Made by a program: the position numbers and the translations under genes. Under the pieces are notes generated by a model, which did not search any database, was not told the DNA's origin, and saw only the letters and a list, made by a program, of their open reading frames with translations. From IMG/VR virus record IMGVR_UViG_3300009165_000051, positions 1 to 20,516 of that record: a stretch of 20,516 bases of DNA; one strand, written 5' to 3'. Origin of the DNA: a virus. This document shows, one piece after another, positions 348 to 20,516 of the stretch; the stretch's first letter is position 1, and each line of letters begins with the position of its first letter.

Positions 348-1544
348 TTAAAGTAACATTGGTAAATCTGTTTTAACTTCCGGTATTTCGTCTTTATCGC
401 CGGCACGACAATATACATTCATTCCTTTTTTAGCCCCCAAATTCTTAATCTCAGGGGAGTGTGCTAAAGAGAAGTACGGTCCAGTACCATTCCAATTCTC
501 TTTCATACGCTTGTACGAGTCAGGTTCCCTAAATTCGATCTCTTCCATATCATCCCAACTAACGCTACCCTTACGCTTTATGATTTGGATAGCATGTTGG
601 AAAGTAAATTCGTACTTTGGAAATAGATCGTCCACCCCACAACAGGATTCACAATCACTATCGAACGGTAGGTTTACAAAATCGGGAGAGGAAGATTTAA
701 CCCCACGTTCATGTAGCATTTGGGAAAACTTCTTACCTATGGGACGCCATACCTTATCCGTATTCCCGTCCATCATTTTGGCGTAATTAAACTTGTTATC
801 TCGGAAATACTCTTGGGCTATTCGGGCATTGGAAGTCCGGTAGTTATAATAGCTAACATGCTTTGCTCCGTACTTCTTGGCGTTGTCGGCATAACCCGAT
901 AGACATTCGTCCGAACTATTAATACCGTACATGATAGGCTCCCACCGTACCCCGCACCATACTCCTTTGCGGTTTAAATCTCCGACCAGACGCCATCGCA
1001 TGCTAGGCTGGGGAGCGTTCGGTTCCAACTTATAATTCAAAGTATCCGTCCCTCCCATGATAGATATTATGACGGCACAATTCAAATCCTTTATAATATC
1101 CAAGTACCGACGCATACCTATCAAATGAGATTTGGTTTCAAAGATAACCGGAACTTTGTATTCACGGAATAGTTCCAAAACCGGAACTACTACGTTATCA
1201 TTGAAGTCCTCTATGCAAAACGTTTCCGATTTGCTTCCCATATTAAAGGGCAATCCCCGACGAAGGCATTGGATAGTCCAATCTTTGGTAGGTTTATCCG
1301 AACCAAATGCTCGGTCGAATAACTCCTTATAATCATCGACATTGCACGGACGTACCAAATCACGATTCCATCCGGTATAATATTTCTCGTACAGTTCCTG
1401 TTCCATTTCCCGACAGAAGCACCACCAACACCCCATGGAGCAACCGGAGAAAATGTCTCCGCCAAACGCTTGGGGACAACATAGTGAATCTCCTCTCCAT
1501 CCTGCAATAGAACCGAATTGTAACTGAGATATGTTTTTCTTCAT
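348..1544 (-). CDS. Radical-SAM protein, spore photoproduct lyase-like (SplB/COG1533 type)
   Basis: The 398-residue product has the radical-SAM iron-sulfur motif Cx3Cx2C at C35, C39 and C42, inside a GCSMGCWWC stretch. Further motifs match the spore photoproduct lyase/DNA repair photolyase family: ETKSHLI (about 136-142), SIMG (161-164), the EP...PS..R segment (174-185), and a later strand with WEPIMYGIN (201-209). Such enzymes use a 4Fe-4S cluster and S-adenosylmethionine to start radical chemistry, classically repair of UV-damaged thymines. Extra cysteines at C298, C301, C302 and C379 could bind a second cluster or metal. Its ATG overlaps the stop of the glycosyltransferase gene (TAATG), which suggests translational coupling. 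The neighbours (glycosyltransferase, DUF362) make modification of DNA, a nucleotide or a peptide as plausible as repair. The family call is firm; the substrate is unknown. Confidence 0.82.
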   Translation of the reverse strand: MKKNISQLQFGSIAGWRGDSLCCPQAFGGDIFSGCSMGCWWCFCREMEQELYEKYYTGWNRDLVRPCNVDDYKELFDRAFGSDKPTKDWTIQCLRRGLPFNMGSKSETFCIEDFNDNVVVPVLELFREYKVPVIFETKSHLIGMRRYLDIIKDLNCAVIISIMGGTDTLNYKLEPNAPQPSMRWRLVGDLNRKGVWCGVRWEPIMYGINSSDECLSGYADNAKKYGAKHVSYYNYRTSNARIAQEYFRDNKFNYAKMMDGNTDKVWRPIGKKFSQMLHERGVKSSSPDFVNLPFDSDCESCCGVDDLFPKYEFTFQHAIQIIKRKGSVSWDDMEEIEFREPDSYKRMKENWNGTGPYFSLAHSPEIKNLGAKKGMNVYCRAGDKDEIPEVKTDLPMLL

Positions 1545-2434
1545 TAACTTAACTTCTTTAAAATATGAGCAGCAGTTTTACTGGGAGGTTCTTTTATGGG
1601 GTTCCTTCCAAAAATATCTACTACATAGTGTTTGTTATAACGAATATGAGGCTTTCCTTTGGAACTTAAATGATAGGTAACCAAGGGATTACTCTCTACC
1701 AAAATGTTTGCAGAATCTTTTTGCTTACTAAAGTCCATAGTTCCCCCACAACCGGAAGATCGTGTCTTCCCCGTTACCGAAGTAACCATAACTGATTCAT
1801 ACCCTTTATGCAAGGCTTTATAAACCAAATCCAAATCATCAAAATATCGTAGGTTAGGATTACTAAATCCTACCTCTTCAAACGTTTCCGTGTTCCATAT
1901 GACGGCATTCCCTATTTGAGTAGTAGAAATGTAACGTTCGTTAGGTTGATTATAAGTTAGCATACCTCCCATAAATCCTGCATTTATAGTAGCACACGCT
2001 AGGTTATGAATATTATCAAAAGCCTCAAATAAGGGAAGTATGGTGGAAGTTAAATTCACATCCGCATCAAATCGGAAAAGTCTTTTGGAGTAACGGGAGG
2101 ATATACTTTGAATGATGTTCTCTTTTCCCCCACATCCCACGTTCTTGTCTAACCAAACGTAAATATAATTGTTACACTTTTGGACTGATTCCCAAATCTC
2201 TTTAGAATCAAACGGGGATAGATCATTCACGATAACATAAAGCCAATTAGCTTTTGATTCCTTTTCGTCCATACGTAAGCTATCCAAGGAACGGAGCATA
2301 GGGGTAAAGTTATTGGCTACATTCCGTTCCGGCTTTTTTACGCCATGACTATCTACCCGATAGCCGGAGAAATAATATCCGCACCCTACGACACAATCGT
2401 ATTGATCTGAAATGATTCTCTTCTCTATCTTCAT
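1544..2434 (-). CDS. GT-A fold glycosyltransferase-like protein
   Basis: The 296-residue product shows a family-2-like glycosyltransferase layout: a sugar-nucleotide/metal DxD-type motif in RFDADV (D123, D125), then GNAVIWNTETFEEVGF (175-190), and an acidic FDDLDLVYKALHKGY segment (198-212) resembling the ED-D/L-R/A-GY region of GT2 enzymes. The N-terminal CVVGCGYYFSGYR is atypical for a classic GT2 nucleotide site. No membrane segment or signal peptide is visible, so it should be cytoplasmic. It overlaps the DUF362 gene upstream by 4 bp (ATGA) and the radical-SAM gene downstream by 1 bp. Possible acceptors include modified phage DNA bases, a cofactor or a protein. The fold assignment is moderately confident; donor and acceptor are unknown. 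Confidence 0.65.
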   Translation of the reverse strand: MKIEKRIISDQYDCVVGCGYYFSGYRVDSHGVKKPERNVANNFTPMLRSLDSLRMDEKESKANWLYVIVNDLSPFDSKEIWESVQKCNNYIYVWLDKNVGCGGKENIIQSISSRYSKRLFRFDADVNLTSTILPLFEAFDNIHNLACATINAGFMGGMLTYNQPNERYISTTQIGNAVIWNTETFEEVGFSNPNLRYFDDLDLVYKALHKGYESVMVTSVTGKTRSSGCGGTMDFSKQKDSANILVESNPLVTYHLSSKGKPHIRYNKHYVVDIFGRNPIKEPPSKTAAHILKKLS

Positions 2435-3267
2435 CGGTAACTTATCGGCAATTCGTAGAACTTTACAAATTGATTCGGAACTGGAACGCTTGCAAAATCC
2501 GAACTTATGTATTTCAAATACTTTATAATTTTGGGATCAATCCCCATGAGTTTCGTAGCCGTTACATCTATCTCCCACTGATCCGTACCGGATAATAGGA
2601 CTTTGGAACGCACCCTACTACCGCACTGCTCGGCATATTCCGCTCCCTCTATCCCGTCCATGACAACGAAGTTTACAAACTGTTTTGTTAGTTCATAGAG
2701 ATCGGCAAGCCGTTCATGTAGAACGGGTACGCTAGCACGGGGATGCATACTACCTTTTTGGGTCATGGTGCCCATCATGTTCTTTATAGCCCCAGTAATT
2801 CCAGCCATACAATGCACCTTCATCTTGGGTATGTTAATTACAATATCTGAATTTAACATGTAGTCAGAGAACTTTGCACCATAAAGGCTTCGGTAAGTTT
2901 CCAAACGCTTTAACGTAAACTTATGAAAGTTCTCCCCGTCTTGCAAAGGAACTAATTCCAACATAGGGTATTTATCTTTCAAAGCAAAGTATCCGGTAGA
3001 TTTAATCGTAGCGTCCCACTGATCCTTGAACCCGCATTCTCCTACGATAATGTGCGTAGGATTTTGCTGCAGGAGTTTTTCCACCACCATTTCCACTACC
3101 TTGACGTGAGTAGTCGAGGGAAAGTCCCACGTCGATAAAGGGGAAACCAGGTTTGGTTTGATAAACACGGTTTTCCCCGTCACCGTAGGAAATCCACTCC
3201 AGAAATACTCTGGAATGGATTCTACGGATAGGGTGGAATAGCTTCTATGCTCGACGATTTGTACCAT
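2431..3267 (-). CDS. DUF362 family protein
   Basis: The 278-residue product matches DUF362 closely by eye: VFIKPNL (34-40), IIVGECG (73-79), VINIPKMKVH (143-152), GITGAIKNMMG (156-166), an HERLADLY segment (184-191), VVMDGIEG (201-208), and IDVTATKLMGIDP (233-245). The DUF362 domain is about the full length of this protein. The ferredoxin-type 4Fe-4S extension seen in some homologues is absent. The biochemical role of DUF362 is not established to my knowledge, and the family is found mainly in cellular organisms. The ATG sits directly after the stop of the acidic protein (TAAATG), and the 3' end overlaps the glycosyltransferase start by 4 bp, so it is embedded in the coupled operon. The family call is strong; the function is open. 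Confidence 0.85.
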   Translation of the reverse strand: MVQIVEHRSYSTLSVESIPEYFWSGFPTVTGKTVFIKPNLVSPLSTWDFPSTTHVKVVEMVVEKLLQQNPTHIIVGECGFKDQWDATIKSTGYFALKDKYPMLELVPLQDGENFHKFTLKRLETYRSLYGAKFSDYMLNSDIVINIPKMKVHCMAGITGAIKNMMGTMTQKGSMHPRASVPVLHERLADLYELTKQFVNFVVMDGIEGAEYAEQCGSRVRSKVLLSGTDQWEIDVTATKLMGIDPKIIKYLKYISSDFASVPVPNQFVKFYELPISYR

Positions 3268-6828: not shown

Positions 6829-6831
6829 AAG

Positions 6832-7518: not shown

Positions 7519-7529
7519 AGTCTTAAAAT

Positions 7530-7548: not shown

Positions 7549-7553
7549 CTTTT

Positions 7554-8499: not shown

Positions 8500-8500
8500 A

Positions 8501-8671
8501 TTACTTCCTTTCTCTTACTTTGTTTTTGTCTAGATACTCGTCTATGACGTGAGATACGTCGTTAAGTAGCCACCAAAGGTGTTCTATTTCCTTTGGGTTA
8601 AGTATGTTTTCGGTAATCATACCTTGGATCAAATTTAATTTGTCCACACATAAACTTTTGGTGTATTCCAT
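8501..8671 (-). CDS. Hypothetical 56-residue protein
   Basis: A short frame runs from the ATG at 8669-8671 to the TAA at 8501-8503. It fills the gap between two other leftward genes almost exactly, leaving 1 bp downstream and 20 bp upstream. The product starts MEYTKSLCVDKLNLIQGMI and continues with helices ending HVIDEYLDKNKVRERK. The leader AATTAAAATAGAATCATT before the ATG is A/T-rich, like those of its neighbours. Position, spacing and amphipathic composition support a real gene. No function can be assigned. Confidence 0.6.
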   Translation of the reverse strand: MEYTKSLCVDKLNLIQGMITENILNPKEIEHLWWLLNDVSHVIDEYLDKNKVRERK

Positions 8672-8691
8672 AATGATTCTATTTTAATTGG

Positions 8692-8898
8692 TTACGGGGT
8701 AGCTTTTGCTAGCCCCTGACTCAATACGTAATCAGCAAATCGGTCTACCATTATAGATAGATTTCGTACGCCACTGTGTTCACAACCCATAATGAAATGT
8801 ATTATTTCTGTTCGGGTGGGCTCATACTGGATATAGGAATAACATTCATTCCATACCCTTTGAAATTCTTTAACATCATACAAATAGTTACTACTCAT
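8692..8898 (-). CDS. Hypothetical small protein
   Basis: The 68-residue helical protein (MSSNYLYDVKEFQRVWNECY at the start, IMVDRFADYVLSQGLAKATP at the end) has no recognised motif. It sits 4 bp after the zinc-knuckle protein and 20 bp before the 56-residue gene, in the same leftward run. It is likely real from packing of the genes; the function is unknown. Confidence 0.6.
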   Translation of the reverse strand: MSSNYLYDVKEFQRVWNECYSYIQYEPTRTEIIHFIMGCEHSGVRNLSIMVDRFADYVLSQGLAKATP

Positions 8899-8902
8899 AG
8901 TT

Positions 8903-9154
8903 TTAAGTTTTACTTGTTGTTTGTATCATTTCATCCATCCATTTATTAAGATATTCGACGTTTTTAAACCATTCTCTTATTGCGATTTTGACACATTCAA
9001 CGTCGTGAAAATAATCATTTGCATATCTTACTCCTAGAAATTCAAATAAGGAAATACAACTTGATCCAGTAGGAATATCTTTTCCACAACCTCTGCAAGG
9101 TTTAATTGTCCTTGTTTTTTTAATTACTTTCAATGATTTAAATGGCCTTTTCAT
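8903..9154 (-). CDS. Small zinc-knuckle protein
   Basis: The 83-residue basic protein has PCRGCGKDIPTGSSC (about 19-33) followed by YFHDVEC (48-54), a CxxC...H/C arrangement suited to one zinc ion. The C-terminal helix EWFKNVEYLNKWMDEMIQ follows. The ATG overlaps the stop of the SNF2 helicase gene (TAATG), which suggests translational coupling and possibly a joint role. Zinc binding is inferred from cysteine spacing; the function is unknown. Confidence 0.65.
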   Translation of the reverse strand: MKRPFKSLKVIKKTRTIKPCRGCGKDIPTGSSCISLFEFLGVRYANDYFHDVECVKIAIREWFKNVEYLNKWMDEMIQTTSKT

Positions 9155-11184: not shown

Positions 11185-11193
11185 TTTCGTTTT

Positions 11194-11544
11194 TTAATTG
11201 AGACTTAAATTAAACTGTTGGACCTGAACTAGTAACTTACAAACAGGACAGGTTACAAACCCAGTTTGTACGTAAGCTACTGGGGCACTAATAACTCCTG
11301 CTTTGATAAGGCATTGTAACATACCTTCATTCTCAGAGTAATTTTTAATGATTACTTCCCCGTCTTTCAAGGGATATTTCGGGACATTGATTGTAGCCAC
11401 TGCTACGGTGTCTTTGTCAGTAGCATCTATCAGGACAATAGCTATCCTATCGTTGTCGTAATAACGAATCTGGACATAGCATTTCCACTGCCTGAACAAA
11501 ACTTCGATCTGATTTAATCCTTGTTGACTTTTTTTACTGGTCAT
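11194..11544 (-). CDS. Hypothetical protein with IKNYSENEGM motif
   Basis: The 116-residue protein has a beta-rich N-terminal half (IRYYDNDRIAIVLIDA, VAVATINVPKYPL) and a distinctive IKNYSENEGMLQCLIKAGVI segment (about 66-85). It ends with GFVTCPVCKLL. I associate this 'ATxNxP...IKxYSENEGM' pattern with small proteins on Bacteroidales mobile elements (DUF4313-like, from memory), which supports a Bacteroidota host. It overlaps the upstream gene by 11 bp and lies 9 bp before the SNF2 gene. The biochemical role is unknown. Confidence 0.68.
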   Translation of the reverse strand: MTSKKSQQGLNQIEVLFRQWKCYVQIRYYDNDRIAIVLIDATDKDTVAVATINVPKYPLKDGEVIIKNYSENEGMLQCLIKAGVISAPVAYVQTGFVTCPVCKLLVQVQQFNLSLN

Positions 11545-11743
11545 CCTCTGTGTATTTTATTAATGTTCGTATTAAATGACTGTAATCACTGGACTTACAT
11601 TCATCCAGCACTTGCTTTATTTCTTCAGCAGACCATCCCTGACGGCTAGCAGCCTTCTGAAAGGCTCCCATTAGGGCATAAGCATTCCCATCTAACCCTT
11701 CAAGGGTCAGACGTACCTTCTTTTTTTCTGGTACTTTTCCCAT
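11534..11743 (-). CDS. Hypothetical small protein
   Basis: The 69-residue protein reads as a short basic strand (KKKVRLTLEGLDGNAYALMG) followed by two helices (AFQKAASRQGWSAEEIKQVL, then SHLIRTLIKYTEDDQ). The 'LEGxDGNAYALMGAFQKAA' start resembles small phage and plasmid proteins from Bacteroidales that I know only as hypothetical. It is the first gene after a 227-bp gap and probably opens the transcript running through the SNF2 helicase. Confidence 0.65.
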   Translation of the reverse strand: MGKVPEKKKVRLTLEGLDGNAYALMGAFQKAASRQGWSAEEIKQVLDECKSSDYSHLIRTLIKYTEDDQ

Positions 11744-11865
11744 TTTTAATTTGTGTTAGTTAAACAATACTATGTGCGTCATTATATAAGTGGGGATTTC
11801 GGTAATCATCCCCTTCATTGATTCCTGATTAAATCGTCCAGAAAAGTTTCTGATCGTGTTACTGC

Positions 11866-11887
11866 AAAAAAGGCACCACGATGCCCT
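11866..11887 (-). terminator. Weak candidate terminator after the peptidase gene
   Basis: In the 227-bp gap (11744-11970), the minus strand shows GGCATCGTGGTGCC followed by TTTTTT. The stem is only four strong pairs (GGCA/TGCC), extendable with a mismatch. The position about 85 bp past the peptidase stop suits a terminator for the 14719-11971 transcript. A second small palindrome (CACCTACAGGTG) lies at 11938-11949. The remaining gap should hold a promoter for the gene at 11743, but I see no convincing one. Confidence 0.35.
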
Positions 11888-11970
11888 GCCGTAGGGTTTT
11901 GCCTAATTTTTCAAAGCAAAAATACAGCGACAAGGCACCTGTAGGTGATTAATCGTTATACCGTTTCCTG

Positions 11971-13086
11971 TTAGTTGTAGATACGGTATTCATCGTCGTA
12001 ATGGTAGTTTCTACAAGAGTAACAGAATCTATGTTCCGTTGGTAACAATTCTATTCCGCAGTATTCACAAACTCTTATTGCGGGAGTTTTTGTTGTATTC
12101 TCTGGTAGACTACGTTTGGGATCAGTAGCTGGGTCATAAACCCTATCCTCTGCCCAGCGGTCAACATAACTTCCTGCACTCTTGGTCCATGATGACTCTC
12201 CTTTCATCCATTTCCCGTCTTTATCCTTGTACCATGTATTGTACTTGGAACACGATTCAACGAACTTTGATTCAGGTAATTGATAACCGTACCTTTCGGT
12301 CAGGGCACATAGGTCGTAACATAGCAGAAAGGCATGATATAACTCATTCGTATCCACATATTCCTTATCGGAATGATGAGCATAATACCCGCAGGAGAGG
12401 TTAAAGCAACTGATTCCGATCTTCCGTTGTTGTACGTTAAAACAATCGGTAAACAATCCACTCGCAAATTCGTACTCATAAGCATCCAAGATAGGTCGAA
12501 GGTCTGCGGCAAAGGCTTTGGAGATTGTTCTATCTCCCATGTAACTATTTATGAAGTCATGCCCGTTCCAACGATCTATACCTCCCAGGAAGGTACAATC
12601 CTTGAAGAATGTTAAGCTGATGTTATTGGAACCCGTACCTCCACTCTCTTCTGAGGTAAAGAATACAACTTTGATATTGGGAACGATGCGTAACAATTCC
12701 AAACATACAAATATTCCGCATTTATCATCCCCTCCAATCCCAACTCGATCCTCTTTCTCATCTTCGGCATACAAATATATCCGGTTATGTTCCTTGTCCT
12801 TTTCAGAATAGACGTTAAAACCATTGCGATACATATGTACGGTATCCAAATGAGCACAGAAGCAAGGGCGCATTCCTTCTCCCTTGCTTACCAAGATATT
12901 CCCATACAGGTCTACGGTATAGGGAATGTTTTCAGATTTCAAGAAGCTGGCAATGAATATAGACATTGACGCTTCATTATACATAGTGGATGGTATTTTA
13001 AACACCTCCACCGCACGTTTGAACATCGCTGACGGCATTTCTGGAGCCAGCCAGTTAGGTTCAAATTGTTGATTAGTGGCACTCAT
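11971..13086 (-). CDS. Dinuclear-zinc peptidase homologue (M20/M28/M42-like) with C-terminal zinc ribbon
   Basis: The 371-residue product has the layout of co-catalytic zinc aminopeptidases/carboxypeptidases: CAHLDTVH (77-84; H79 and D81), GGDDKCG (118-124; metal-bridging D120 or D121), FFTSEESGGTGS (142-153; E146 and E147), GIDRWNG (169-175), and YYAHHSDKEYVDTNEL (234-249; H237 or H238). This is the peptidase T/M20-like order of ligands, so it may be active. Residues 340-358 add a CEYC...CYSC zinc ribbon that is not part of the peptidase core. Overlap of 14 bp with the multi-zinc-finger gene suggests coupling. In a phage it might process a peptide, hydrolyse a modified amino-acyl conjugate or inactivate a host factor; the substrate is unknown. 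Confidence 0.72.
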   Translation of the reverse strand: MSATNQQFEPNWLAPEMPSAMFKRAVEVFKIPSTMYNEASMSIFIASFLKSENIPYTVDLYGNILVSKGEGMRPCFCAHLDTVHMYRNGFNVYSEKDKEHNRIYLYAEDEKEDRVGIGGDDKCGIFVCLELLRIVPNIKVVFFTSEESGGTGSNNISLTFFKDCTFLGGIDRWNGHDFINSYMGDRTISKAFAADLRPILDAYEYEFASGLFTDCFNVQQRKIGISCFNLSCGYYAHHSDKEYVDTNELYHAFLLCYDLCALTERYGYQLPESKFVESCSKYNTWYKDKDGKWMKGESSWTKSAGSYVDRWAEDRVYDPATDPKRSLPENTTKTPAIRVCEYCGIELLPTEHRFCYSCRNYHYDDEYRIYN

Positions 13087-14719
13087 AATCTAATTGTAAT
13101 TGGTTTCTCATATCCCATCCAACAACCTGTTCTACATCTACCATAGGTGGAGGGGTAACGGCAGGCAGAAGGTGCGTTATTCCATCTATACCTATTTTTG
13201 TGGAAAGACGACCTGCATAAAACACCTTCACTCCATGCTCACAAGCTGGACAATGTACGTTTACTTGCCCTTGTTTTAGTAATACCCCAGATACTCGGTC
13301 TCCACAAACACAACAAGTAGTACTGATTTTCTTAATACAGTTAATACATACGCCATAAACACGTACTTTATCAACCCGTCCACGATACATCTGGTCGTGC
13401 GGATGCTTTTCTTTACATATACGGCATACTGGCCATTGATCCGCACATCCGGCACAATAAGAACGTCCTGTTTCAGCGTGGTATATTAAATCCTCAGAAT
13501 AATGATACGCTCCACAACTGTAACAGCTATATACCTCCATGTTTTCAATACACTCCTCACATATTTCAACATGACCTCCTCCGTTTGGAAGATTTACTGT
13601 TTTGAGATACGTATAATAATGATTTTCACCACACTCACTACAATCTCTTACCACGTCATCATTCTCGTAACAGGTTGAGCATAATGTATAGCCGTCTACC
13701 TGAATTGATGGTTCATTACAGGATACGCTACATCCGCAGTGATGGCATTGTTCACGAATTTGGAAAGTCCCACCACTACAATCCTGGATAGTATTAATAC
13801 AATAATCACTTTTGTTACTGAGGAAGTAATTACCTTTATCATCCCGATGTAAATGGCACATCGTATCCATATATGGAGCACCTTCGTTCTCCAAATATTC
13901 TATGGCTTTTGTAGGGAGGGGCACTTTAAGATAGATGGTACGTTCCCGATGATAAATAGAACTACTACCGTATTGACGCCAAGCCCAGTCATTCTCCTTT
14001 GCGTGCTCGATTAATTGATAATTATGAGCTTCCGAACCATAAATACGGTCCATAAACGTAACCTCATCATCTGTGTGCCAAACCTTGGTTTGCCATAGTA
14101 AAGCACGAAATAATAACCGTCCTGCTATTTTCTTATGAACGATTTTTAAGCCTGGAATGGTATTATAAAAACCGGAATAATCATGGCATCCATATCCGCT
14201 ATCACTACGCATACAGGAGTTAAGCAGATAATGACTTAACTCGTGAGCATCCGTTTCATAGACAGATTCGATGTTTTCCGATATTTCATAATTAACCTCC
14301 TCATTGCTACCGCTAATGCGAGAAGCAAAGAGTTCAGCACCACGGGCAATGATACGATCTCGCAACTCTTCGTCACGAATTGTCATTCCCTGATTGTCAT
14401 ACACTCTGAACATAGAGGCAAAGAATAAAAAGAAACGTCCAGGTTTAATTTCCTGACGTCCCTCTTTTACCCATTGTCCCCGATCAGTTAAGGGTTGTTC
14501 ACCCTTGGATGTTGGCCAACAAGTTATCTTATTCTGCTTGTTAAAACAGAAATAATTAAACTCGGAGGCTGGGAAGTCTAATGTCACATCCCTACTATTA
14601 CCATCCATCGTTGTTAAACGTGGATCAATAATGTAAGTAATGCCAGCTATTTTTGCGTTTATTTCCGAACGCAAAAGCGGTAGCAGTTTCCTGCTAACCA
14701 CAACACGGTTTCCCTTCAT
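13073..14719 (-). CDS. Large multi-zinc-finger phage protein, unknown function
   Basis: The 548-residue protein has an N-terminal part (1-320) with a HELSHYLLNSCMRSD segment (159-173) and AGRLLFRALLWQTK (199-212). An 'SCMR ... GRALLW' pairing recurs in phage hypothetical proteins. Residues 325-495 hold at least five zinc-binding units: CHHC/CSTC, CSECGENH/CEEC, CYSCGAYH/CAGC, CRICKEKH/CINC, and CCVCGDR/CPAC. HELSH could recall a metalloprotease HExxH, but its spacing is HE-L-SH, one residue too short, so I do not call a protease. The gene follows the conserved leader TAATCAAAACCTTAAAAA. Binding to nucleic acid or proteins is likely; the function is unknown. Confidence 0.7.
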   Translation of the reverse strand: MKGNRVVVSRKLLPLLRSEINAKIAGITYIIDPRLTTMDGNSRDVTLDFPASEFNYFCFNKQNKITCWPTSKGEQPLTDRGQWVKEGRQEIKPGRFFLFFASMFRVYDNQGMTIRDEELRDRIIARGAELFASRISGSNEEVNYEISENIESVYETDAHELSHYLLNSCMRSDSGYGCHDYSGFYNTIPGLKIVHKKIAGRLLFRALLWQTKVWHTDDEVTFMDRIYGSEAHNYQLIEHAKENDWAWRQYGSSSIYHRERTIYLKVPLPTKAIEYLENEGAPYMDTMCHLHRDDKGNYFLSNKSDYCINTIQDCSGGTFQIREQCHHCGCSVSCNEPSIQVDGYTLCSTCYENDDVVRDCSECGENHYYTYLKTVNLPNGGGHVEICEECIENMEVYSCYSCGAYHYSEDLIYHAETGRSYCAGCADQWPVCRICKEKHPHDQMYRGRVDKVRVYGVCINCIKKISTTCCVCGDRVSGVLLKQGQVNVHCPACEHGVKVFYAGRLSTKIGIDGITHLLPAVTPPPMVDVEQVVGWDMRNQLQLDYECH

Positions 14720-14741
14720 TCTTTTTTAAGGTTTTGATTAA
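14720..14741 (-). promoter_or_regulatory. Conserved translation leader (type example)
   Basis: Just before the ATG, the minus strand reads TTAATCAAAACCTTAAAA. Close variants lie directly upstream of other leftward start codons: 7261-7275, 15407-15426, 15672-15692, 16108-16124, 16504-16518, 17004-17026 and 17579-17600. Shorter relatives occur before the genes starting at 3852 and 5670. The core is CAAAACCTTAAAA, ending 1-12 nt before the start. There is no Shine-Dalgarno sequence, so this A-rich element is the probable ribosome-recruiting leader. I used it to choose starts at 16107 and elsewhere. Confidence 0.6.
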
Positions 14742-14775
14742 AAACACAAATGTGACGTCTGATTAACGTCATCGA

Positions 14776-14817
14776 GCCGGAGTGGGACACGAGCCCACTT
14801 CAAACTCCAAGTCCGGC
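14776..14817. other. Nested inverted repeat between two genes
   Basis: GCCGG (14776-14780) can pair with CCGGC (14813-14817), and inside it AGTGGG (14781-14786) pairs with CCCACT (14794-14799) around a 7-nt loop. The two helices are contiguous on one side and separated by 13 nt on the other. There is no adjacent T-run, so it is not an ordinary terminator. The acceptor/T-arm-like geometry is suggestive, but the loop does not match a T-loop well. It could be a structured 3' or 5' untranslated element. Confidence 0.35.
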
Positions 14818-14823
14818 AAGGTT

Positions 14824-15018
14824 TTAATGTTCAATTGGTTTTGGTGAATTCTCTGGATGAACGCAAGCTGTTGGATTATACATAGTATGCCCCCACTTAC
14901 GATACATCCATCTTTGTAATCGGTCATCCCAATATTTGAATAACCCGCAGTACACACAACGCTTATCAATTGTGTTTTCCACTTTCTGCCATTTATGGCG
15001 AATTAGTCTTGCTCTCAT
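14824..15018 (-). CDS. Small zinc-knuckle protein
   Basis: The 64-residue basic protein starts MRARLIRHKWQKVENTIDKR and carries CVYCG (21-25), then a tryptophan-rich stretch (YWDDRLQRWMYRKWG) and a later Cys at TACVHP. That fits a small zinc ribbon, possibly with His completing the site. Its start overlaps the preceding gene's stop by 4 bp (ATGA). A frame from 14969 to 14769 overlaps it but lacks any such pattern, so I prefer this one. It could bind nucleic acid; the function is unknown. Confidence 0.62.
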   Translation of the reverse strand: MRARLIRHKWQKVENTIDKRCVYCGLFKYWDDRLQRWMYRKWGHTMYNPTACVHPENSPKPIEH

Positions 15019-15215
15019 ACGCTGGTCTTTTTTACTCTCTTCAAAACATGAGCACCATAAACAATATCAACTTTTCCGTTCTCATCCTGGATTCGATATA
15101 CGACGGCTTGGGAACATGGTTTCCATCCTTCGATAATCTTTCCAGTTTTAACGACGGTAACAGTAACATCATATTGAACCATCGTTCCATTTTCAATCGG
15201 TTTCGTGGATTTCAT
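15015..15215 (-). CDS. Hypothetical small beta-rich protein
   Basis: The 66-residue protein is mostly beta strand by eye (MVQYDVTVTVVKTGKIIEGW, then AVVYRIQDENGKVDIVYGA) and looks like a small barrel or SH3-like fold. Its ATG overlaps the stop of the gene upstream (TAATG), and its own stop overlaps the next start, making a coupled three-gene unit 15406-14824. I do not recognise a family. Confidence 0.62.
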   Translation of the reverse strand: MKSTKPIENGTMVQYDVTVTVVKTGKIIEGWKPCSQAVVYRIQDENGKVDIVYGAHVLKRVKKTSV

Positions 15216-15406
15216 TATATGCGGTATTTGTCTACTGTTTCCACAAGAGTTTTATGAAACTCTTCCAGAGTATTTCCAGCGATACAACAAATGATTTTTT
15301 CGTTAATTATCACTTTAGTATCAAGGAGTTCTCCATTCCAGACATCAGATTCATAAGTGATTACTGAGTCCCCAAATGTTCTAAATGACATTTTTGTAGC
15401 TTTCAT
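15215..15406 (-). CDS. Hypothetical small protein
   Basis: The 63-residue protein (MKATKMSFRTFGDSVITYES at the start) reads as strands followed by a C-terminal helix (NTLEEFHKTLVETVDKYRI). The conserved leader TCAAAACCTTAAAAAGAA lies directly before the ATG, which supports the start. It is the first gene of the three-gene coupled unit. The function is unknown. Confidence 0.65.
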   Translation of the reverse strand: MKATKMSFRTFGDSVITYESDVWNGELLDTKVIINEKIICCIAGNTLEEFHKTLVETVDKYRI

Positions 15407-15425
15407 TTCTTTTTAAGGTTTTGAT

Positions 15426-15671
15426 TCAAACGATTTTTATCAATTCTTCACGTATTTCCCAGAAAGGAGCACTACGATAGTGTCCATCTGATTCTTCTGG
15501 TAGTTTATCTCCTGGATAATATACGGAAATGGTTACTCGTCCGTCATTCTCATATATTACCTTGCGTTCAGCTTCTGATTGAGTAGCGAAAACTCCCTTA
15601 TATGTATCCGTAAGGTTACTATCACCATCCCAATACCAATACAACAAAACATACACTTTAACTTTTTTCAT
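15426..15671 (-). CDS. Hypothetical small protein
   Basis: The 81-residue protein begins MKKVKVYVLLYWYWDGDSNL, then GVFATQSEAERKVIY, and ends in PFWEIREELIKIV. The pattern 'YVLLYxYWDGD...GVFxTxxEAE' fits small phage proteins that report or sense something unknown. It follows its own promoter-like motif (15704-15718) and the conserved leader (AAAACCCTAAAAAGAA), and the previous transcript ends just upstream at the terminator 15724-15754. It is therefore probably expressed independently. The function is unknown. Confidence 0.68.
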   Translation of the reverse strand: MKKVKVYVLLYWYWDGDSNLTDTYKGVFATQSEAERKVIYENDGRVTISVYYPGDKLPEESDGHYRSAPFWEIREELIKIV

Positions 15672-15703
15672 TTCTTTTTAGGGTTTTTGATAATTAAAAC
15701 TCG

Positions 15704-15718
15704 AACTGTCTATAATAC
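15704..15718 (-). promoter_or_regulatory. Promoter-like motif GTATTATAGACAGTT
   Basis: On the minus strand this lies just after a terminator and 33 bp before the ATG of the 81-residue gene. Near-identical 15-mers occupy the same position at 16534-16548 and 17611-17625. I infer a phage promoter from this terminator-promoter-leader-gene layout. Confidence 0.55.
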
Positions 15719-15723
15719 GGCAT

Positions 15724-15754
15724 AAAAAAAGGGAACGGATAAATCCATTCCCTT
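15724..15754 (-). terminator. Intrinsic terminator
   Basis: The minus strand reads AAGGGAATGGAT, a 2-nt loop, ATCCGTTCCCTT, then a run of seven or more T. The 12-bp stem has a single mismatch. It lies 21 bp after the stop of the 59-residue gene (15776), so it ends that transcript. Confidence 0.8.
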
Positions 15755-15775
15755 GATTCTGATTTGATTCCCTTT

Positions 15776-15955
15776 TTACTTTCTGGAATAGGAAGTATGC
15801 TTTCTAAACATTGGAAAAGTCTTTTTGGGTTTCTCCCTCTTTAACTTATCCAATAAAGCAATTGCCTTATTCACGTGAATGATCCCGTGACGATCCATCA
15901 GATTTTCGATTTCATCTAATGAATACTCCCTGATTTTAACATCTGGCTTGCTCAT
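15776..15955 (-). CDS. Hypothetical 59-residue protein
   Basis: I start this gene at the ATG 15953-15955, whose ATGA overlaps the stop of the small membrane protein; a longer reading to 16018 would run into that gene. The product begins MSKPDVKIREYSLDEIENLM and ends in a basic tail (KLKREKPKKTFPMFRKHTSY). The helical middle (GIIHVNKAIALLDKL) has no recognised motif. It is basic and soluble. The terminator at 15724-15754 follows it. Confidence 0.6.
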   Translation of the reverse strand: MSKPDVKIREYSLDEIENLMDRHGIIHVNKAIALLDKLKREKPKKTFPMFRKHTSYSRK

Positions 15956-16107
15956 ATGACATGATTCTTTACGCAGCATACAATCCAGAACAGTACACAA
16001 GCAAAATAGAATACCCATAACATACTCTCTGATACTTTACGGGCTTTGCTCCTCTGCTTGCGAGGAGGCTCGATGAACAAAGTGTTCATAACTTCTACAA
16101 TCTTCAT
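15952..16107 (-). CDS. Small single-pass membrane protein
   Basis: The start at 16105-16107 is chosen because the conserved leader TCAAAACCTTAAAAAAG ends directly at it; a frame extends to 16161 but without a leader. The 51-residue product has a basic N-terminal half (PPRKQRSKARK) followed by one hydrophobic segment, MLWVFYFACVLFWIVCCV, and a short tail. By the positive-inside rule the N-terminus should be cytoplasmic. Phage inner-membrane proteins of this size often act in exclusion, lysis control or takeover, but nothing here tells which. Confidence 0.6.
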   Translation of the reverse strand: MKIVEVMNTLFIEPPRKQRSKARKVSESMLWVFYFACVLFWIVCCVKNHVI

Positions 16108-16164: not shown

Positions 16165-16503
16165 CTACGAGTGAGATTCAGGAATGATAACAGTTTCATT
16201 CCTCCGGCAGTACCAGGCAATGACGAAATTACGAAATGCCTCTTTAACGCTAACATTTCTACCCTTGGGATAGAACAAAGTGGTAAACTCTCTGATCGAA
16301 CCTTCCCAATGTAACCGGCATCCGGTACGGATAAACCGAGTTGGAATAATAGGTTCCTCAGCGATTTCACAATCATTCCCTTCCATCCTCATTAATACCG
16401 TAGTATTGTGAGAATTTAGACGTACGGAATAGGTACGTTCTGGAATGGTTCTCTCCTCTATCTGATATACGATAGGGAGTTGCTTTACGCTACTTTTCAT
16501 CAT
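16165..16503 (-). CDS. Hypothetical protein
   Basis: The 112-residue protein starts MMKSSVKQLPIVYQIEERTI (the second ATG, at 16498-16500, is an alternative) and contains PTRFIRTGCRLHWEGSIREF and EAFRNFVIAWYCRRNE. It has alternating strands and a C-terminal helix; no motif is recognised. It has its own promoter-like motif (16534-16548) and leader (TCAAAAACCTTAAA). It is a likely real gene of unknown function. Confidence 0.65.
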   Translation of the reverse strand: MMKSSVKQLPIVYQIEERTIPERTYSVRLNSHNTTVLMRMEGNDCEIAEEPIIPTRFIRTGCRLHWEGSIREFTTLFYPKGRNVSVKEAFRNFVIAWYCRRNETVIIPESHS

Positions 16504-16533
16504 TTTAAGGTTTTTGATAAATTAAAAAACTAG

Positions 16534-16548
16534 AACTCTCTATAATAC
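16534..16548 (-). promoter_or_regulatory. Promoter-like motif GTATTATAGAGAGTT
   Basis: On the minus strand it sits immediately after the terminator 16551-16579 and 31 bp before the ATG of the 112-residue gene. It differs at one base from the copy at 15704-15718 and shares 14 of 15 bases with that at 17611-17625. Confidence 0.6.
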
Positions 16549-16589: not shown

Positions 16590-17003
16590 TTAGAAACCAA
16601 AAGTAAACGTTACGTTGGAAAGTAAAACTACGTCCCCAGTTTCGTAGAGTAAACGGAGAACAGGAAGTAAGTCTGCGATAGTTTCTAGTAGATCGTCATT
16701 TTCGTAGACTTTCTTCAGGTCGTAGTCTATTAAAATAGATTTCTCAAAAATAGGGTTCTTATCATCGTAGATAGGTGATAAATCTATTTCTGGAATACCT
16801 CCCGCCAGTTTAAGAGTAACCGGAGAACCTGCGACTCCGAAAAATGATTCTTCTACGATAGGAATTTCCGAAATGATATGCTTAACGGTAGTTTTTCCAT
16901 CCGTAATCTTTTCGCATTTACGAAGTAAAATGTACGGCGTAGGTTCGTCATTTTCGTTCCCGTAGCGGAAACTCTTCATTTCTTTTTCAATAAACGTTTT
17001 CAT
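16590..17003 (-). CDS. Hypothetical acidic protein
   Basis: The 137-residue acidic protein starts MKTFIEKEMKSFRYGNENDE, has a beta-rich middle (TPYILLRKCEKI, VKHIISEIPIVEESFFGVAG), and ends with ETGDVVLLSNVTFTFGF. No family is recognised. It has its own leader (TATAAACCTTAAAAATTAAG) and terminator. CA and TG dinucleotides are already scarce here (about 23 in 460 bp, roughly 40% of chance), forming a ramp into the CA/TG-free tract to the right. The function is unknown. Confidence 0.66.
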   Translation of the reverse strand: MKTFIEKEMKSFRYGNENDEPTPYILLRKCEKITDGKTTVKHIISEIPIVEESFFGVAGSPVTLKLAGGIPEIDLSPIYDDKNPIFEKSILIDYDLKKVYENDDLLETIADLLPVLRLLYETGDVVLLSNVTFTFGF

Positions 17004-17169
17004 CTTCTTAATTTTTAAGGTTTATAATAGAAATCCAAAATGTTCTCAGACGATATTTTTGGGACATCTTCCGGTACGTTCGGAAGCGAGTTAGTTTTCC
17101 ATTTCCTTCCTCCCTTATTCCCGTAGTTTTAGTTTATGACCTAAAGAATTAGTTCGTCCCTATTAAACG

Positions 17170-17198
17170 AAAAAAAACCGACGGTTTAACGTCGGTTT
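17170..17198 (-). terminator. Intrinsic terminator (second of tandem pair)
   Basis: The minus strand reads AAACCGACG, a 6-nt loop, CGTCGGTTT, followed by a T-run. The 9-bp stem is perfect. It lies directly beyond the terminator at 17215-17249, giving the 103-residue gene a double stop. Confidence 0.75.
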
Positions 17199-17214
17199 AA
17201 CGGTACGAACGGGT

Positions 17215-17249
17215 AAAAAAAAACCGGAGTAAAATTAATTACTCCGGTT
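17215..17249 (-). terminator. Intrinsic terminator (first of tandem pair)
   Basis: The minus strand reads AACCGGAGTAA, a 6-nt loop, TTACTCCGGTT, then nine T. The 11-bp stem is perfect and starts 17 bp after the stop of the gene at 17267-17578. Confidence 0.85.
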
Positions 17250-17266
17250 AAAATTCGCTTTCGGTT

Positions 17267-17578
17267 TTACTCGGCTTTCGTTTCGGCGTCGGCTTTCGTT
17301 TCGGTTTTTTTCGCTTTCGTTTCGGCTTTCGGCGTTTCGGTTTTACCGTTAACGGCGTCTTTTCCTAGATAACCCCGAAGTAAACGAAAGCCGTATTTAA
17401 AATTAGCTTTCGTTTCCTTTAAGTTACTTTCCTTTCCCGTTTCCTTTTTAAAAAGGTCGTCGGCTAGTTTACTTCCTTTTTCCTCCGGTACGTTTAAACC
17501 GTATTTCCGGAAAATAACGCCTACGGCGTCGGCTCGGGTAAACTCCGAACTTTTTAATAAAACTTTCGCTTTACTCAT
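17267..17578 (-). CDS. Small RxDAV-domain protein encoded without CA or TG
   Basis: The 103-residue basic protein has a compact domain at 13-70 (FTRADAV, later TGKESNLKETKANFKYGF) and a repetitive Lys/Ala/Glu/Thr tail from about 80 (PKAETKAKKTETKADAETKA). The domain resembles residues 131-185 of the acidic protein at 3268-3852. Apart from the start ATG, the gene contains no CA or TG dinucleotide, so the product has no His, Gln, Cys or Trp, and no internal Met. Codon choice follows the same rule: Ala never uses GCA, Leu never TTG or CTG, and Thr never ACA. Yet the frame is open, with leader (TTAATCTTAAAACCTTAAAA), promoter-like motif and tandem terminators in place. That argues for a functional gene. 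It may be a nucleoid-type DNA binder given its basic tail, but this is a guess. Confidence 0.72.
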   Translation of the reverse strand: MSKAKVLLKSSEFTRADAVGVIFRKYGLNVPEEKGSKLADDLFKKETGKESNLKETKANFKYGFRLLRGYLGKDAVNGKTETPKAETKAKKTETKADAETKAE

Positions 17579-17610
17579 TTTTTTAAGGTTTTAAGATTAA
17601 TAAAATAAAA

Positions 17611-17625
17611 TACTCTCTATAATAC
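17611..17625 (-). promoter_or_regulatory. Promoter-like motif GTATTATAGAGAGTA
   Basis: Third minus-strand copy of the motif, 32 bp upstream of the ATG of the 103-residue gene and just after the orphan terminator at 17652-17707. It conforms to the CA/TG ban without change. Confidence 0.58.
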
Positions 17626-17651
17626 GACGTCGGAACGACGGTTTAACGGTT

Positions 17652-17707
17652 AAAAAAAAACGGGACGTTAAACGAGTAAAAAAATAACTCGTTAAACCGT
17701 CCCGTTT
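17652..17707 (-). terminator. Large intrinsic terminator with no gene upstream
   Basis: The minus strand reads AAACGGGACG, then a further stem TTTAACGAGT (with one mismatch and one bulge), a T-rich loop, the complementary arm, and a final run of nine T. The outer 10 bp are perfect. On this strand there is no open frame upstream between 17710 and 18300 and no possible start codon. The terminator therefore implies a leftward non-coding transcript, or insulation of the promoter at 17611. Confidence 0.7.
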
Positions 17708-18226
17708 ACCTTAAAAATAGATTAGTTCGCTTTCGTTCGCTTATAAGTTTAAACGCCCGTTCCGTTTAACGTCCCGATTTTTACGGCTAGTATAAAAACT
17801 TACGGCTTTCGCCCCGTCCTATTTTAACTTTAAACGTCGTTCGACGGCTATTATAAAACTTTCGCTTTCTAGCTTAATCGGGTAAACGGTTTTACGTTCC
17901 TCCCTTATAAGGTTTTAAAACCTTTCGGCTTTAACTCGGTTTTATCGACTTACGGTTTTACTCCGGCTTTCCGTTCTCCGTTCCTCCTCTCCGTTTACGG
18001 TTTTACCCGTTTTTTTCCTCCGACGGTTAAACGCCCGAACTCCGTTTTACGTTATTTTCCCGAACTTAATTAAACCGGCTAGTTTTTCGCTTTTTACTAT
18101 TCGCTTACGTACGAACGGCGTTTTTTTCGGTTTACTAGCTTAAAACCGGAGAGGCTTATTTCTCTTAACTATCTAGTTTCTAGCGTTTTACGTTTTAGGT
18201 TTTACGGGATTATTCCCTCTCCCGAT

Positions 18227-18320
18227 ACTAACTAAAATAATCGAATAAAACTAATTATTTTATAATTAATTTTATATACGGTTAAAAATAACTTATAAAA
18301 CGTTAATTATTAATAAGTTA
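18227..18320. other. AT-rich core, candidate replication origin
   Basis: This stretch of about 94 bp is almost all A and T (ATTATTTTATAATTAATTTT and similar) inside a CpG-rich tract. To its left the plus strand is pyrimidine-rich; to its right it is purine-rich. The switch coincides with the divergence of leftward and rightward genes. Such a composition flip around an AT-rich unwinding element is typical of origins. No initiator-binding iterons are obvious inside it. Strand switch due to transcription alone is an alternative. Confidence 0.4.
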
Positions 18321-18560
18321 GGAACGCATAAACGTTATACTATTATTATAATAGGCGTCGGGTAAACGTTCCTAAACTATCGGGTAAACGTCCCGACGTC
18401 CCGAACTCGAAACGACGTCGGAACGGTAAACGGAACGGGACGGCGTTTAACCGTTAAACGGGACGGTTTAAACGCCGTCCCTATACCTTAATAGATAGGG
18501 ACGCCGGAACGGGTAAACGTACCGTAAAACGAACGGGACGCCGTTAAACGGCTAAAACCG

Positions 18561-18648
18561 ACGGGACGCCGGAACGCCGTAAAACGGGACGCCGTAAAAC
18601 TAGGTTTAAAACTAGGTTTAAACGGGACGCCGGAACGCCGTAAAACGG
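18561..18648. repeat. 27-bp direct repeat pair with internal tandem 12-mer
   Basis: A 27-bp sequence beginning ACGGGACGCCGGAACGCC occurs at 18561-18587 and again, identical, at 18622-18648. Between them a 12-mer CTAGGTTTAAAA/C is tandemly repeated (18600-18611, 18612-18623). Shorter echoes (GGTAAACG, CCGTAAAACG, GGGACGCC) are scattered over 18360-18660. The density suggests binding sites or slipped duplication within a replication or packaging region. Confidence 0.65.
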
Positions 18649-18658
18649 CGTTTTACGG
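18638..18658. repeat. Perfect 10+1+10 inverted repeat
   Basis: CCGTAAAACG, one G, then CGTTTTACGG. It partly overlaps the second 27-bp repeat and lies at the right end of the CA/TG-free tract. It could form a cruciform or be a dimeric protein site. Confidence 0.65.
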
Positions 18659-18690
18659 GACGTAAATGTGTTATAAAGATAGGCGTCGTA

Positions 18691-18777
18691 AGTTATTAAT
18701 ATATAGAGAGTTAAGAGTCCATAGACTAACTACTATTATCGGAACGCCGTAACTTATTAATATAGAGAGAGTTAAGG
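18691..18777 (+). promoter_or_regulatory. Two tandem promoter-like copies (ATAGAGAGTTAAG)
   Basis: The plus strand carries two related blocks about 60 bp apart: AGTTATTAATATATAGAGAG then TTAAG at 18691-18715, and AACTTATTAATATAGAGAGA then GTTAAG at 18751-18776. Both contain the ATAGAGAG(AG)TT element of the minus-strand motifs at 15704, 16534 and 17611, here facing the terminase genes. They are candidate rightward promoters, although about 660-740 bp from the terminase start. Confidence 0.45.
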
Positions 18778-18842
18778 GAGGGACGTACCCGTTTCGCCGA
18801 TAGGGACGGAGGACGTGGGCGATTGGCGTCCCTAAAAATTTC

Positions 18843-19219
18843 TGCATACTAAATGTTTAAAACCGTTTTTGCACACAAGGCTCCCTACCCTCCCTACCGT
18901 TATGCACAGTACCCGATACCCCTATTTGCACAGTTACGCTTACTCCTTGCACACTACTATTCTGCAAAACGACTTATATTTACCTTTCCGTAAGGGGAAC
19001 CTGACTTTAGACCTACCATATTTTTTTTACTATGGCGATGACTCCTTATAGGTTTGCACACTATTAGGTATTGGTACCTGCAAAATCTTCGTATTTCTAC
19101 CAAATCCGGTTTTGCACAGGATATTTACGGGTTTTGCAGGCTAGAAAAATTTGCAAAGTTTTCGTTATGCAGAATCGTTTTTGCAGGGTTAGTATATATA
19201 CTACCAAAAAGGAAGTGCA
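18843..19219. repeat. Cluster of 14 TGCA sites upstream of terminase
   Basis: TGCA starts at 18843, 18870, 18903, 18927, 18948, 18963, 19055, 19079, 19113, 19135, 19152, 19168, 19182 and 19216, with one more at 19423. About 1.5 would be expected in 377 bp. Most are in a TTTTGCA(C/A/G) context, spaced 14-34 bp with one 92-bp gap. The non-coding region 18667-19439 contains nothing else gene-like: frames across it are short and follow the repeats. A cluster next to the terminase genes suits a packaging site or an operator array. Confidence 0.6.
19190..19203. promoter_or_regulatory. 14-bp perfect palindrome, copy 1
   Basis: TAGTATATATACTA is a perfect 14-bp palindrome, identical to the copy at 19238-19251, 48 bp away. 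Its position before the rightward terminase genes suggests an operator for a dimeric repressor or activator. Confidence 0.6.
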
Positions 19220-19237
19220 AAAACGCCAAGAATTGCC

Positions 19238-19251
19238 TAGTATATATACTA
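19238..19251. promoter_or_regulatory. 14-bp perfect palindrome, copy 2
   Basis: Second identical TAGTATATATACTA. The 48-bp spacing is between four and five helical turns, so two bound dimers would not be exactly in phase. Confidence 0.6.
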
Positions 19252-19439
19252 AGGTGATGGCGGGATAAAATTTATGGTAATTTAGAATTGGTCTGCGTAA
19301 GTATGACACGTTGTATGCCGGCATGGCTGTACGGTATGAAGGGGGCATGCTGGGGAAATCGTTTTGGAAAAAAAAATCTGGAAAAACGAAACCTGATATC
19401 AGAAAATTACGTTATATTTTCGTGCAAAAGCTTGAAACC

Positions 19440-19958
19440 ATGGAACGAAATATGGAGCGGGAGAGGTTAAATGAGTGGAACGAATATCGTCCCCAACAAG
19501 TGTATGAACTTGCCTTGCTTGGCGGACTGACCCACGAGGATATGGCTCGCTGTATGTGCATTACCCTGACGACGTTTGAATCATGGCTGAAGACTCATGC
19601 TAGCTTCGCCCACTCGCTGGAGGAAGGTGGTATGCGGGCAGTCGCCAGAGTAGCCCGTGCATTGTTTCGGAGTGCTGAGGGGTATGAGTATGATGAAGAA
19701 GTATGTGTGTTTCGTAAGGGACAAATGTTTAAAGAGGTCGTACACCGTGTGATGCCCCCGAACGTTGCAGCATGTATAAAGATTTTAAGTGCCCGTCATA
19801 AGAGTGAATGGTCCGAAGTGCAAAGGACAGAGATTACCCAAACCACGAATATTAATCTGGCTCGGATTGATTTGTCTTCCTTGAACACCGAAGAACTAAC
19901 TCTCATGAAAAGTATAGGACTCAAAATGATACCTAACCGTGCCGATAGTAGCAATTGA
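19440..19958 (+). CDS. terS: Terminase small subunit
   Basis: The 172-residue product from this ATG has a helix-turn-helix of TerS type (LTHEDMARCMCITLTTFESW, about 32-51 from this start), followed by helices (SLEEGGMRAVARVARALFRS). The typical closing module GYEYDEEVCVFRKGQM, VVHRVMPPNVAACIKILSAR and SEWSEV follows; 'PPxxxA...L..R....W' is characteristic. TerS binds the packaging site and loads the large subunit. The frame extends upstream to 19311 (TTG) or 19323 (ATG), adding about 40 basic residues, but those lack an A-rich leader. I prefer 19440, which follows AAAAGCTTGAAACC. The stop overlaps the large-subunit gene by 20 bp. The family call is good; the start is uncertain. Confidence 0.78.
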   Translation: MERNMERERLNEWNEYRPQQVYELALLGGLTHEDMARCMCITLTTFESWLKTHASFAHSLEEGGMRAVARVARALFRSAEGYEYDEEVCVFRKGQMFKEVVHRVMPPNVAACIKILSARHKSEWSEVQRTEITQTTNINLARIDLSSLNTEELTLMKSIGLKMIPNRADSSN

Positions 19959-20516
19959 ATCGAAAGGTAGCCCCAAAGCAGAACTTTTGACCAAGGCTCT
20001 GGCCAACCCACTGTCAATCATACGTGAACTAAACAATCGTAGCCTATACCATTTTGTACAGTACTTCTGGCCAGTCGTGTCCAATCATACGTTTTCCCCC
20101 AACTGGCATATCGAATACCTTTGCCAGGAATTAGAGCATATGGCGTACCAGGTCGGTAGCAAAAAGCCACGGGAATACGATTTGATAATAAACGTCCCGC
20201 CAGGATCAACGAAAACCATAACTTGCAGCATCATGTTTCCTGTATGGTGCTGGACCAAATGGTGGTGGATGCGTTTTATATGTGGTAGCTACTCCAAGGA
20301 TTTGAGCCTAGAATCTGCAGAATATAGCCGTGAACTTGTACGCTCCCCAGAGTTCCAGGAGATTTACCCCGATTTGGACATAAAAGAGGATAAGGATACC
20401 AAATCGAACTTTAAAGTTGTGCATAAGGAGATTTTGGTAGGTGGTCGAACCCGAAACTATTCTGGTGGTAGCCGTTATAGTACGTCCGTGGGAGCCACCC
20501 TAACTGGATTTCACGG
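19939..20516 (+). CDS. terL: Terminase large subunit, N-terminal part (3' end beyond window)
   Basis: An open frame begins after a TGA at 19927 and runs off the right edge. The first usable start is GTG at 19939-19941 (PIVAIESKGSPKAELL follows), overlapping terS by 20 bp. The 192 visible residues include FWPVVSNHTFSPNWHIEYLC (about 43-62), the packaging ATPase Walker A NVPPGSTKT (85-93), GSYSKDLSLESAEYSRELVR (116-135), SPEFQEIYP (136-144), and the start of the STSVGATLTGFH segment (181-192) that precedes Walker B in this family. It pumps DNA into the capsid and cuts it. The call is strong; the Walker B and nuclease domain lie outside. Confidence 0.88.
   Translation, partial: MPIVAIESKGSPKAELLTKALANPLSIIRELNNRSLYHFVQYFWPVVSNHTFSPNWHIEYLCQELEHMAYQVGSKKPREYDLIINVPPGSTKTITCSIMFPVWCWTKWWWMRFICGSYSKDLSLESAEYSRELVRSPEFQEIYPDLDIKEDKDTKSNFKVVHKEILVGGRTRNYSGGSRYSTSVGATLTGFH

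Follow-up and report, generated by a model that had tools for sequence, protein, structure and literature searches.

The DNA analysed here (the window) is a virus fragment of 20,516 nucleotides (20.5 kb) from IMG/VR, and just upstream of its packaging genes it contains a tract of ~1.5 to 1.7 kb from which the dinucleotides CA and TG have almost disappeared. This raises the question of what could remove one dinucleotide so completely from a single region of a phage genome, in coding and non-coding DNA alike.

The CA/TG-free tract and its surroundings

The early genes of the window point leftward and encode a primase, helicases, a radical-SAM-like protein and a DUF362 protein. The late genes point rightward and begin with the small terminase gene (TerS) at 19311. 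The tract occupies the divergent region between the two operons, next to TerS, and the following features were located in and around it.

16590..17003, minus strand: early gene left of the tract, partly CA/TG-depleted (22 observed, 38.5 +/- 4.3 expected from protein and codon usage)
17139..18666 as first noted (17066-18816 by segmentation), no strand: CA/TG-free tract
17167..17251, minus strand: two terminators, each a hairpin with a T run, past the 3' end of the tract gene (fold -33 kcal/mol, z = -5.0), both CA/TG-free
17267..17578, minus strand: tract gene, 103 aa, ORF with start codon at 17576
17579..17625, minus strand: promoter/leader that serves the tract gene and shares 79% identity with 16497-16548, the leader in front of the next early gene
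17655..17708, no strand: long inverted repeat, resembling a terminator in either direction, found by inspecting the sequence
17709..18240, no strand: CA/TG-free DNA without an intact gene (three-frame translation)
18360..18663, no strand: repeat-rich CA/TG-free DNA of the ACGGGACGCCGGAACGCCGTAAAACGG family (repeats D1, D4, D5)
18667..19260, no strand: right flank with 14 TGCA palindromes and TATATACTA elements, CA/TG mainly within TGCA
19311..19958, plus strand: small terminase subunit, first late gene (phrog_309, E 4e-23)
19990..20516, plus strand: large terminase subunit (TerL), N-terminal part, cut by the record end (assigned from terminase relatives)

By direct count, positions 17139-18666 contain CA twice and TG not at all, and the mean of 2000 mononucleotide shuffles was 182.5 CA/TG (minimum 147), which bears out the near-absence reported by an earlier, sequence-only reading. 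From the dinucleotide content of window positions 1-16000, 174 would be expected. Segmentation with a penalty for each hit placed the tract at 17066-18816, with 7 CA/TG against 181 expected. Ban tracts are defined here as strand-symmetric near-absences of one mixed dinucleotide with an LLR above ~25 and less than 3 kb upstream of TerL, and the tract of the window is one of them, with an LLR of 146. The strand symmetry of the ban and its extension over the gene, the terminators and non-coding DNA, both described in the sequence-only reading, were confirmed by direct count, and so was the CpG excess (odds 2.64; AT 0.47, AA/TT 1.5-1.8). Outside the tract, the CA/TG odds in the window are 0.94, and there is thus no genome-wide depletion as restriction-site avoidance would predict. 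The probability of G after C rises from 0.20 to 0.53 in the tract, and the rise of TA is modest. CA was therefore replaced mainly by CG, which does not fit a RIP-like change of CpA to TpA.

The boundaries are gradual on both sides. The right flank (18667-19260) holds 52 CA/TG, 28 of them within the 14 TGCA palindromes, a number to be compared with 2.1 expected and a maximum of 9 in 2000 shuffles. Between the tract and TerS, the palindromes at 18843-19219 are mostly TTTGCA, often TTTGCACA, with TATATACTA elements alongside, and terminase or a regulator may bind to this array. Its presence and the position of the tract suggest a putative headful (pac) packaging region.

The two surviving CA/TG lie at 17576 and 18327. 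The former is the CAT/ATG start codon of the tract gene and has survived because a start codon cannot avoid TG. Past this codon, the gene has no CA/TG at all, where its protein would lead one to expect 25.5 +/- 3.6, and the protein is devoid of C, H, Q and W, with M only as initiator. A possible paralog at 3268-3852 is normal (57 CA/TG, 55.8 expected). By eye and alignment, the segment 'F-T-R-A-D-A-V ... G-K-E-S-N' of the tract protein resembles the C-termini of this paralog and of genes in the relatives L050 and L021; single-sequence tblastn found the resemblance not significant, and a peptide-pattern search for homologs of the tract gene and of the neighbouring early gene returned none. L021, as a possible carrier of a tract-gene relative, is without a ban in the 400 bp seen beyond. 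Farther right, 17709-18240 holds no ORF with a start codon because every NTG is absent, and it is possibly a lost cassette. Rfam and tRNA searches of the window found nothing.

Ban tracts in terminase relatives

Among GenBank phages, no DNA relatives of the window were found. Its closest relatives are L005, which is 99.95% identical in DNA and covers 3268-11743 only, and L007 and L008, which are ~66-70% identical; none of the three spans the tract, and L007 stops near its left edge. Terminase relatives in IMG/VR were scanned for mixed-dinucleotide gaps, and two further terminase searches added L312, L305 and L332. Nine further phages have a comparable tract ahead of their small terminase gene, and most of them ban another dinucleotide.

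L050: CA/TG, tract at the corresponding place (2986-3460); its only CA belongs to the start codon of a gene on the minus strand, a dozen TG remain, and the depletion is partly strand-asymmetric
L032: AC/GT, 23 observed, 107 expected
L037: AC/GT and GC, 6 observed, ~123 expected
L305: AC/GT, 5 observed, 208 expected over 2.5 kb
L042: GA/TC, 2 observed, 32 expected; CC/GG, 1 observed, 63 expected
L047: GA/TC, 3 observed, 50 expected; CC/GG partly
L332: GA/TC, 8 observed, 56 expected
L312: GA, GG, TC and CC, 2 observed, 381 expected over 2447 bp, the most extreme case
L063: AG/CT, 15 observed, 69 expected

Outside the tracts the banned words occur at ordinary frequency, and in none of four near-complete genomes (65-70 kb) does any other mixed-dinucleotide gap match the strength of the one upstream of TerS. 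L063, L042 and L332 are weaker cases, since gaps elsewhere reach an LLR of ~20-24. The sequence-only reading had raised the conservation of position and ban in a diverging sequence. The position is kept across the clade, and the sister pair L042/L047 also keeps the kind of ban with tract sequences of no obvious resemblance by eye; the banned word itself varies over the clade.

Tract genes follow the ban even in amino-acid composition, and their paralogs elsewhere do not. A single banned step remains of 19.4 expected in the tract gene of L037, and with 50 observed and 45.5 expected the paralog at 4721 shows no depletion. The tract of L305 encodes a 272-aa ORF without T or V. The ban pattern is real, recurrent, position-specific and strong enough to shape proteins. 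In L312, three adjacent ORFs (377-1656) do without D, E, G, P and W, an extreme natural reduced amino-acid alphabet. A small protein family, 'TKKSI...GID.D..KN..V.RLW.SKLG', was seen in several copies per genome, one of them within the tract (L037:7769-8143 and 4721-4984, G007:40384-40563, G006:19785-19991).

A common logic appears when every tract is tabulated around G: G with one particular neighbour is absent from both strands, a rule whose complement is equally a rule about C. The words banned across the relatives are TG, GT, G plus pyrimidine, GA, G plus purine, and AG, with their complements. G preceded by T is absent in the tracts of the window (2 of 618 G) and L050, and G preceded by A in L063. 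G followed by A is absent in L042, L047 and L332, with GG also low in the first two, and L312 extends this to any purine (3 of 743 G). G followed by T is absent in L305 (5 of ~1110 G) and L032, and G followed by a pyrimidine in L037 (6 of 300 G). The replacements vary by phage (CA to CG, AC to AT, GA to GT, AG to AT or TG) and are transition-like in the window and L037, and transversion-like in L047, L042 and L063. A deaminase or RIP-like process was rejected because of this variation. A longer recognition motif is unsupported, as tetranucleotides are largely predicted from trinucleotide content, and slippage or cryptic repeats are not the whole story, as non-repetitive genes obey the ban too.

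Several other segments attracted attention in the scans. Low CA/TG in L026 and an AC/GT gap at the G040 contig end were attributed to repeat-coding DNA and not to tracts, and low CA/TG in L124 to GC-rich DNA of an unrelated contig. A segment poor in AG/CT, TA and GC, 8.6 kb ahead of TerL in a DpdA-less phage (L057:1338-1854), probably consists of repeats. Near-perfect short repeats (GCTGCTGGG/GCTGCTAGG) at L199:17800-18191 run off the G040 contig end, and L163:127-378 is an ORF rich in N-G-Y-G repeats. Contigs of relatives seem to break off unusually often within or next to the tract region, 0.5-2.3 kb from TerL on its upstream side; examples are L007:1-100, L047:1-226, the ends of L008 and G038 and a large number of TerL loci. 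Such breaks may point to DNA ends, repeats or strong sequence diversity at this place.

DNA-modification genes in the ban phages

DpdA puts 7-deazaguanine into phage DNA and thereby guards against restriction (PMC6884629). It was detected with phrog_887, because phage DpdAs escape the TGT Pfam model PF01702. Each of the five near-complete ban phages has the gene (L032, L037, L047, L063 and L312, as records G006, G007, G008, G009 and G042). None of the 12 near-complete relatives without DpdA has a ban (G011-G015, G030, G045, G046, G049, G050, G051, G054), and eight have DpdA but no ban (G016, G027, G031, G033, G035, G047, G048, G052). Among records longer than 45 kb with the region covered, the co-occurrence of DpdA and ban gave a one-sided Fisher p of 0.024, with kinship ignored. 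FolE (GTP cyclohydrolase I) and other preQ0-type genes were found in G006-G009, with a QueD-family PTPS in G006 and G007 and QueC in G008 and G009; G006 and G007 yielded no QueC.

In the ban phages DpdA adjoins the sliding clamp, as in CAjan and 9g, and is ~27-41% identical to the CAjan enzyme. The DpdAs of L032 and L037 are sisters (58% identity, support 0.97-0.99), although by TerL L032 groups with the window and apart from L037; a GT-type ban thus goes with sister DpdAs in phages that are not TerL sisters, in this single pair. The DpdA of G042 does not group with that of G008, though both phages have GA-type bans. The context of the CAjan enzyme is given as GA and GGC (PMC8306585, citing Kot et al. 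2020). The ban of L312 on GA plus GG is close to the context so cited, and those of L042 and L047 largely likewise. A scan of CAjan and of 9g minus its last 6.7 kb found no dinucleotide-free tract.

In the window's genus, DpdA, FolE and QueC were not found in the window (20.5 kb) or in L008 (36.8 kb), both of them fragments; L008 adds 19 kb beyond the left end of the window. Part of a cassette that follows the sliding clamp in this genus is present in the window.

348..3267, minus strand: radical-SAM-like protein (348-1544), unknown protein (1544-2434) and DUF362 protein (2431-3267), placed by synteny via L008/L163

Beside the sliding clamp, the usual place of DpdA, L008 encodes an acyltransferase-like protein (below the Pfam cut-off), an unknown protein, a radical-SAM protein and a small ORF, followed by counterparts of the three window genes. 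Taken together, L163:16432-19808 and window 348-3267 outline a clamp-linked cassette with two radical-SAM proteins (phrog_13321), DUF362 and the acyltransferase-like protein, and the phrog_13321 pair was also seen in G022 (L061). This cassette is a candidate for another, non-DpdA DNA-modification system, and any such role would be hypothetical.

A proposed unmodified control region and its alternatives

The best explanation, given about even odds, is that selection has purged the tract of the short context where the phage's own DNA-modification enzyme acts. In this case, ~0.5-2.5 kb between the early and late operons would stay unmodified and the remaining genome would be modified; the banned word would be the modification context, and the absence of modification the trait under selection. 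Such an unmodified zone might help host RNA polymerase to transcribe the early genes, or serve an origin or recognition by terminase. In the window phage, the modifier would be other than DpdA, perhaps the two-radical-SAM cassette. Modification avoidance in a control region is favoured because the tract adjoins TerS between divergent operons and because relatives avoid other words at the same place; the G-centred logic, the similarly short contexts cited for DpdA and for thymidine hypermodification, DpdA in the five near-complete ban phages and its place by the clamp, the sister DpdAs of L032 and L037, the precedence of the ban over coding needs and the ordinary word levels outside the tracts add support. 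The counter-evidence consists of the tractless DpdA phages, the p value of ~0.02 with kinship ignored, the fragments of the window's genus in which no DpdA, FolE or QueC was found, the lack of a QueC hit in G006 and G007, the separate grouping of the G042 and G008 DpdAs and the partial strand asymmetry of L050. As the eight DpdA relatives, CAjan and 9g are without a tract, DpdA phages do not generally need an unmodified zone. Taken jointly, dedicated modification-free zones, a banned word that equals enzyme specificity and an undescribed modification system in the window's genus are a tentative proposal, at slightly less than even odds.

The sequence-only reading had listed a mutational process at CpA/TpG, avoidance of a sequence-specific enzyme or modification, and selection for a region free of start codons and TTTG promoters, for example an origin or packaging control region. 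Of this list, comparison with relatives favours modification avoidance in such a control region. Where TG is banned on both strands, NTG starts are formally banned as well, which holds for the window and partly for L050, but the GA/TC, AC/GT and AG/CT bans of relatives leave ATG or TTG in place, and selection against start codons or host promoters is refuted as a general cause and scarcely credible. A mutational process confined to the region and destroying one dinucleotide would explain the shift of CA mass to CG in the window and the strand asymmetry of L050, and a spared start codon would be expected were selection to save it; no common chemistry, however, fits replacements whose direction varies by phage, which makes this process improbable. 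Hardly any weight is given to an assembly or sequencing artefact: contigs of several relatives do end at or near the tract, but independent samples agree, with intact reading frames and coding-consistent choices.

A different proposal, unlikely but the most serious of the alternatives, is that the tract is the first-injected genome end, purged of a dinucleotide needed by a host defence such as a short CRISPR PAM or a short-site nuclease. The first anti-defence genes located there would shield the remaining genome, and different hosts would lead to different bans. T5 first-step-transfer DNA, which has no EcoRI sites, is a precedent. The promoter-gene-terminator cassettes, the strand symmetry, the indifference to coding and bans that differ between phages with normal word levels elsewhere all agree with such a view, as does the place of the tract beside TerS, like the pac site and physical end of 9g (PMC5567051). 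Against it, CRISPR escape in phages normally proceeds via point mutations, and G with a purine or pyrimidine neighbour would be unusual as a PAM. Moreover, we know of no defence that enforces a pure dinucleotide to 99%. Less probable again is a dense array to which a lineage-specific packaging or other DNA-binding protein attaches, its binding being disturbed by the banned step; the protein encoded in the tract might be the one concerned. The repeats and restricted vocabulary of the tracts would fit such an array, and so would the homologous, multicopy tract genes of L032 and L037, whose family has a predicted fold weakly resembling winged-helix DNA-binding proteins (best E 0.5); the lack of a clear longer motif and a ban equally strict in non-repetitive coding DNA speak against it.

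Known systems resemble the preferred reading, avoidance of the phage's own modification, in part. Like the ban phages, CAjan and 9g have DpdA by the sliding clamp, their FolE/QueD/QueC pathway is matched in part by the genes found in G006-G009, and the modification context cited for CAjan is short and G-centred like the ban words. In 9g, the divergent region ahead of the terminase genes harbours the pac site and corresponds to the place of the tract (PMC5567051). Unlike the ban phages, the two have no dinucleotide-free tract, and the window's genus differs in that no DpdA was seen there. Thymidine hypermodification has TG or TC contexts (PMC6449724), and the dinucleotide context of phages M6, ViI and phi W-14 would fit the TG/CA ban of the window, but their pathway was not identified in the phages studied here. 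Restriction-site avoidance, including that of T5 first-step-transfer DNA, is similar as a region-limited loss of enzyme sites near the entering end, whereas here a 2-bp word is 80-99% absent over 0.3-2.5 kb and amino-acid composition is altered. Fungal RIP and the CpG/UpA avoidance of animal viruses also deplete dinucleotides; here the depletion is local, differs between close relatives and involves more than one mutation type in the replacements. To our knowledge, no unmodified tract has been described in M6, ViI or phi W-14. A literature search for CpA/TpG-depleted phage tracts returned nothing, and word avoidance this extreme, local, lineage-specific and stronger than coding constraint, appears to be undescribed.

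If the preferred reading is false, some other local force must be at work, strong enough to clear several adjacent reading frames of five amino acids. If it is true, the specificity of uncharacterised DNA-modification enzymes would be readable from genome sequence, such footprints would lead to candidate new modification systems, and the first transcription, replication or packaging of a heavily modified phage genome would become testable.
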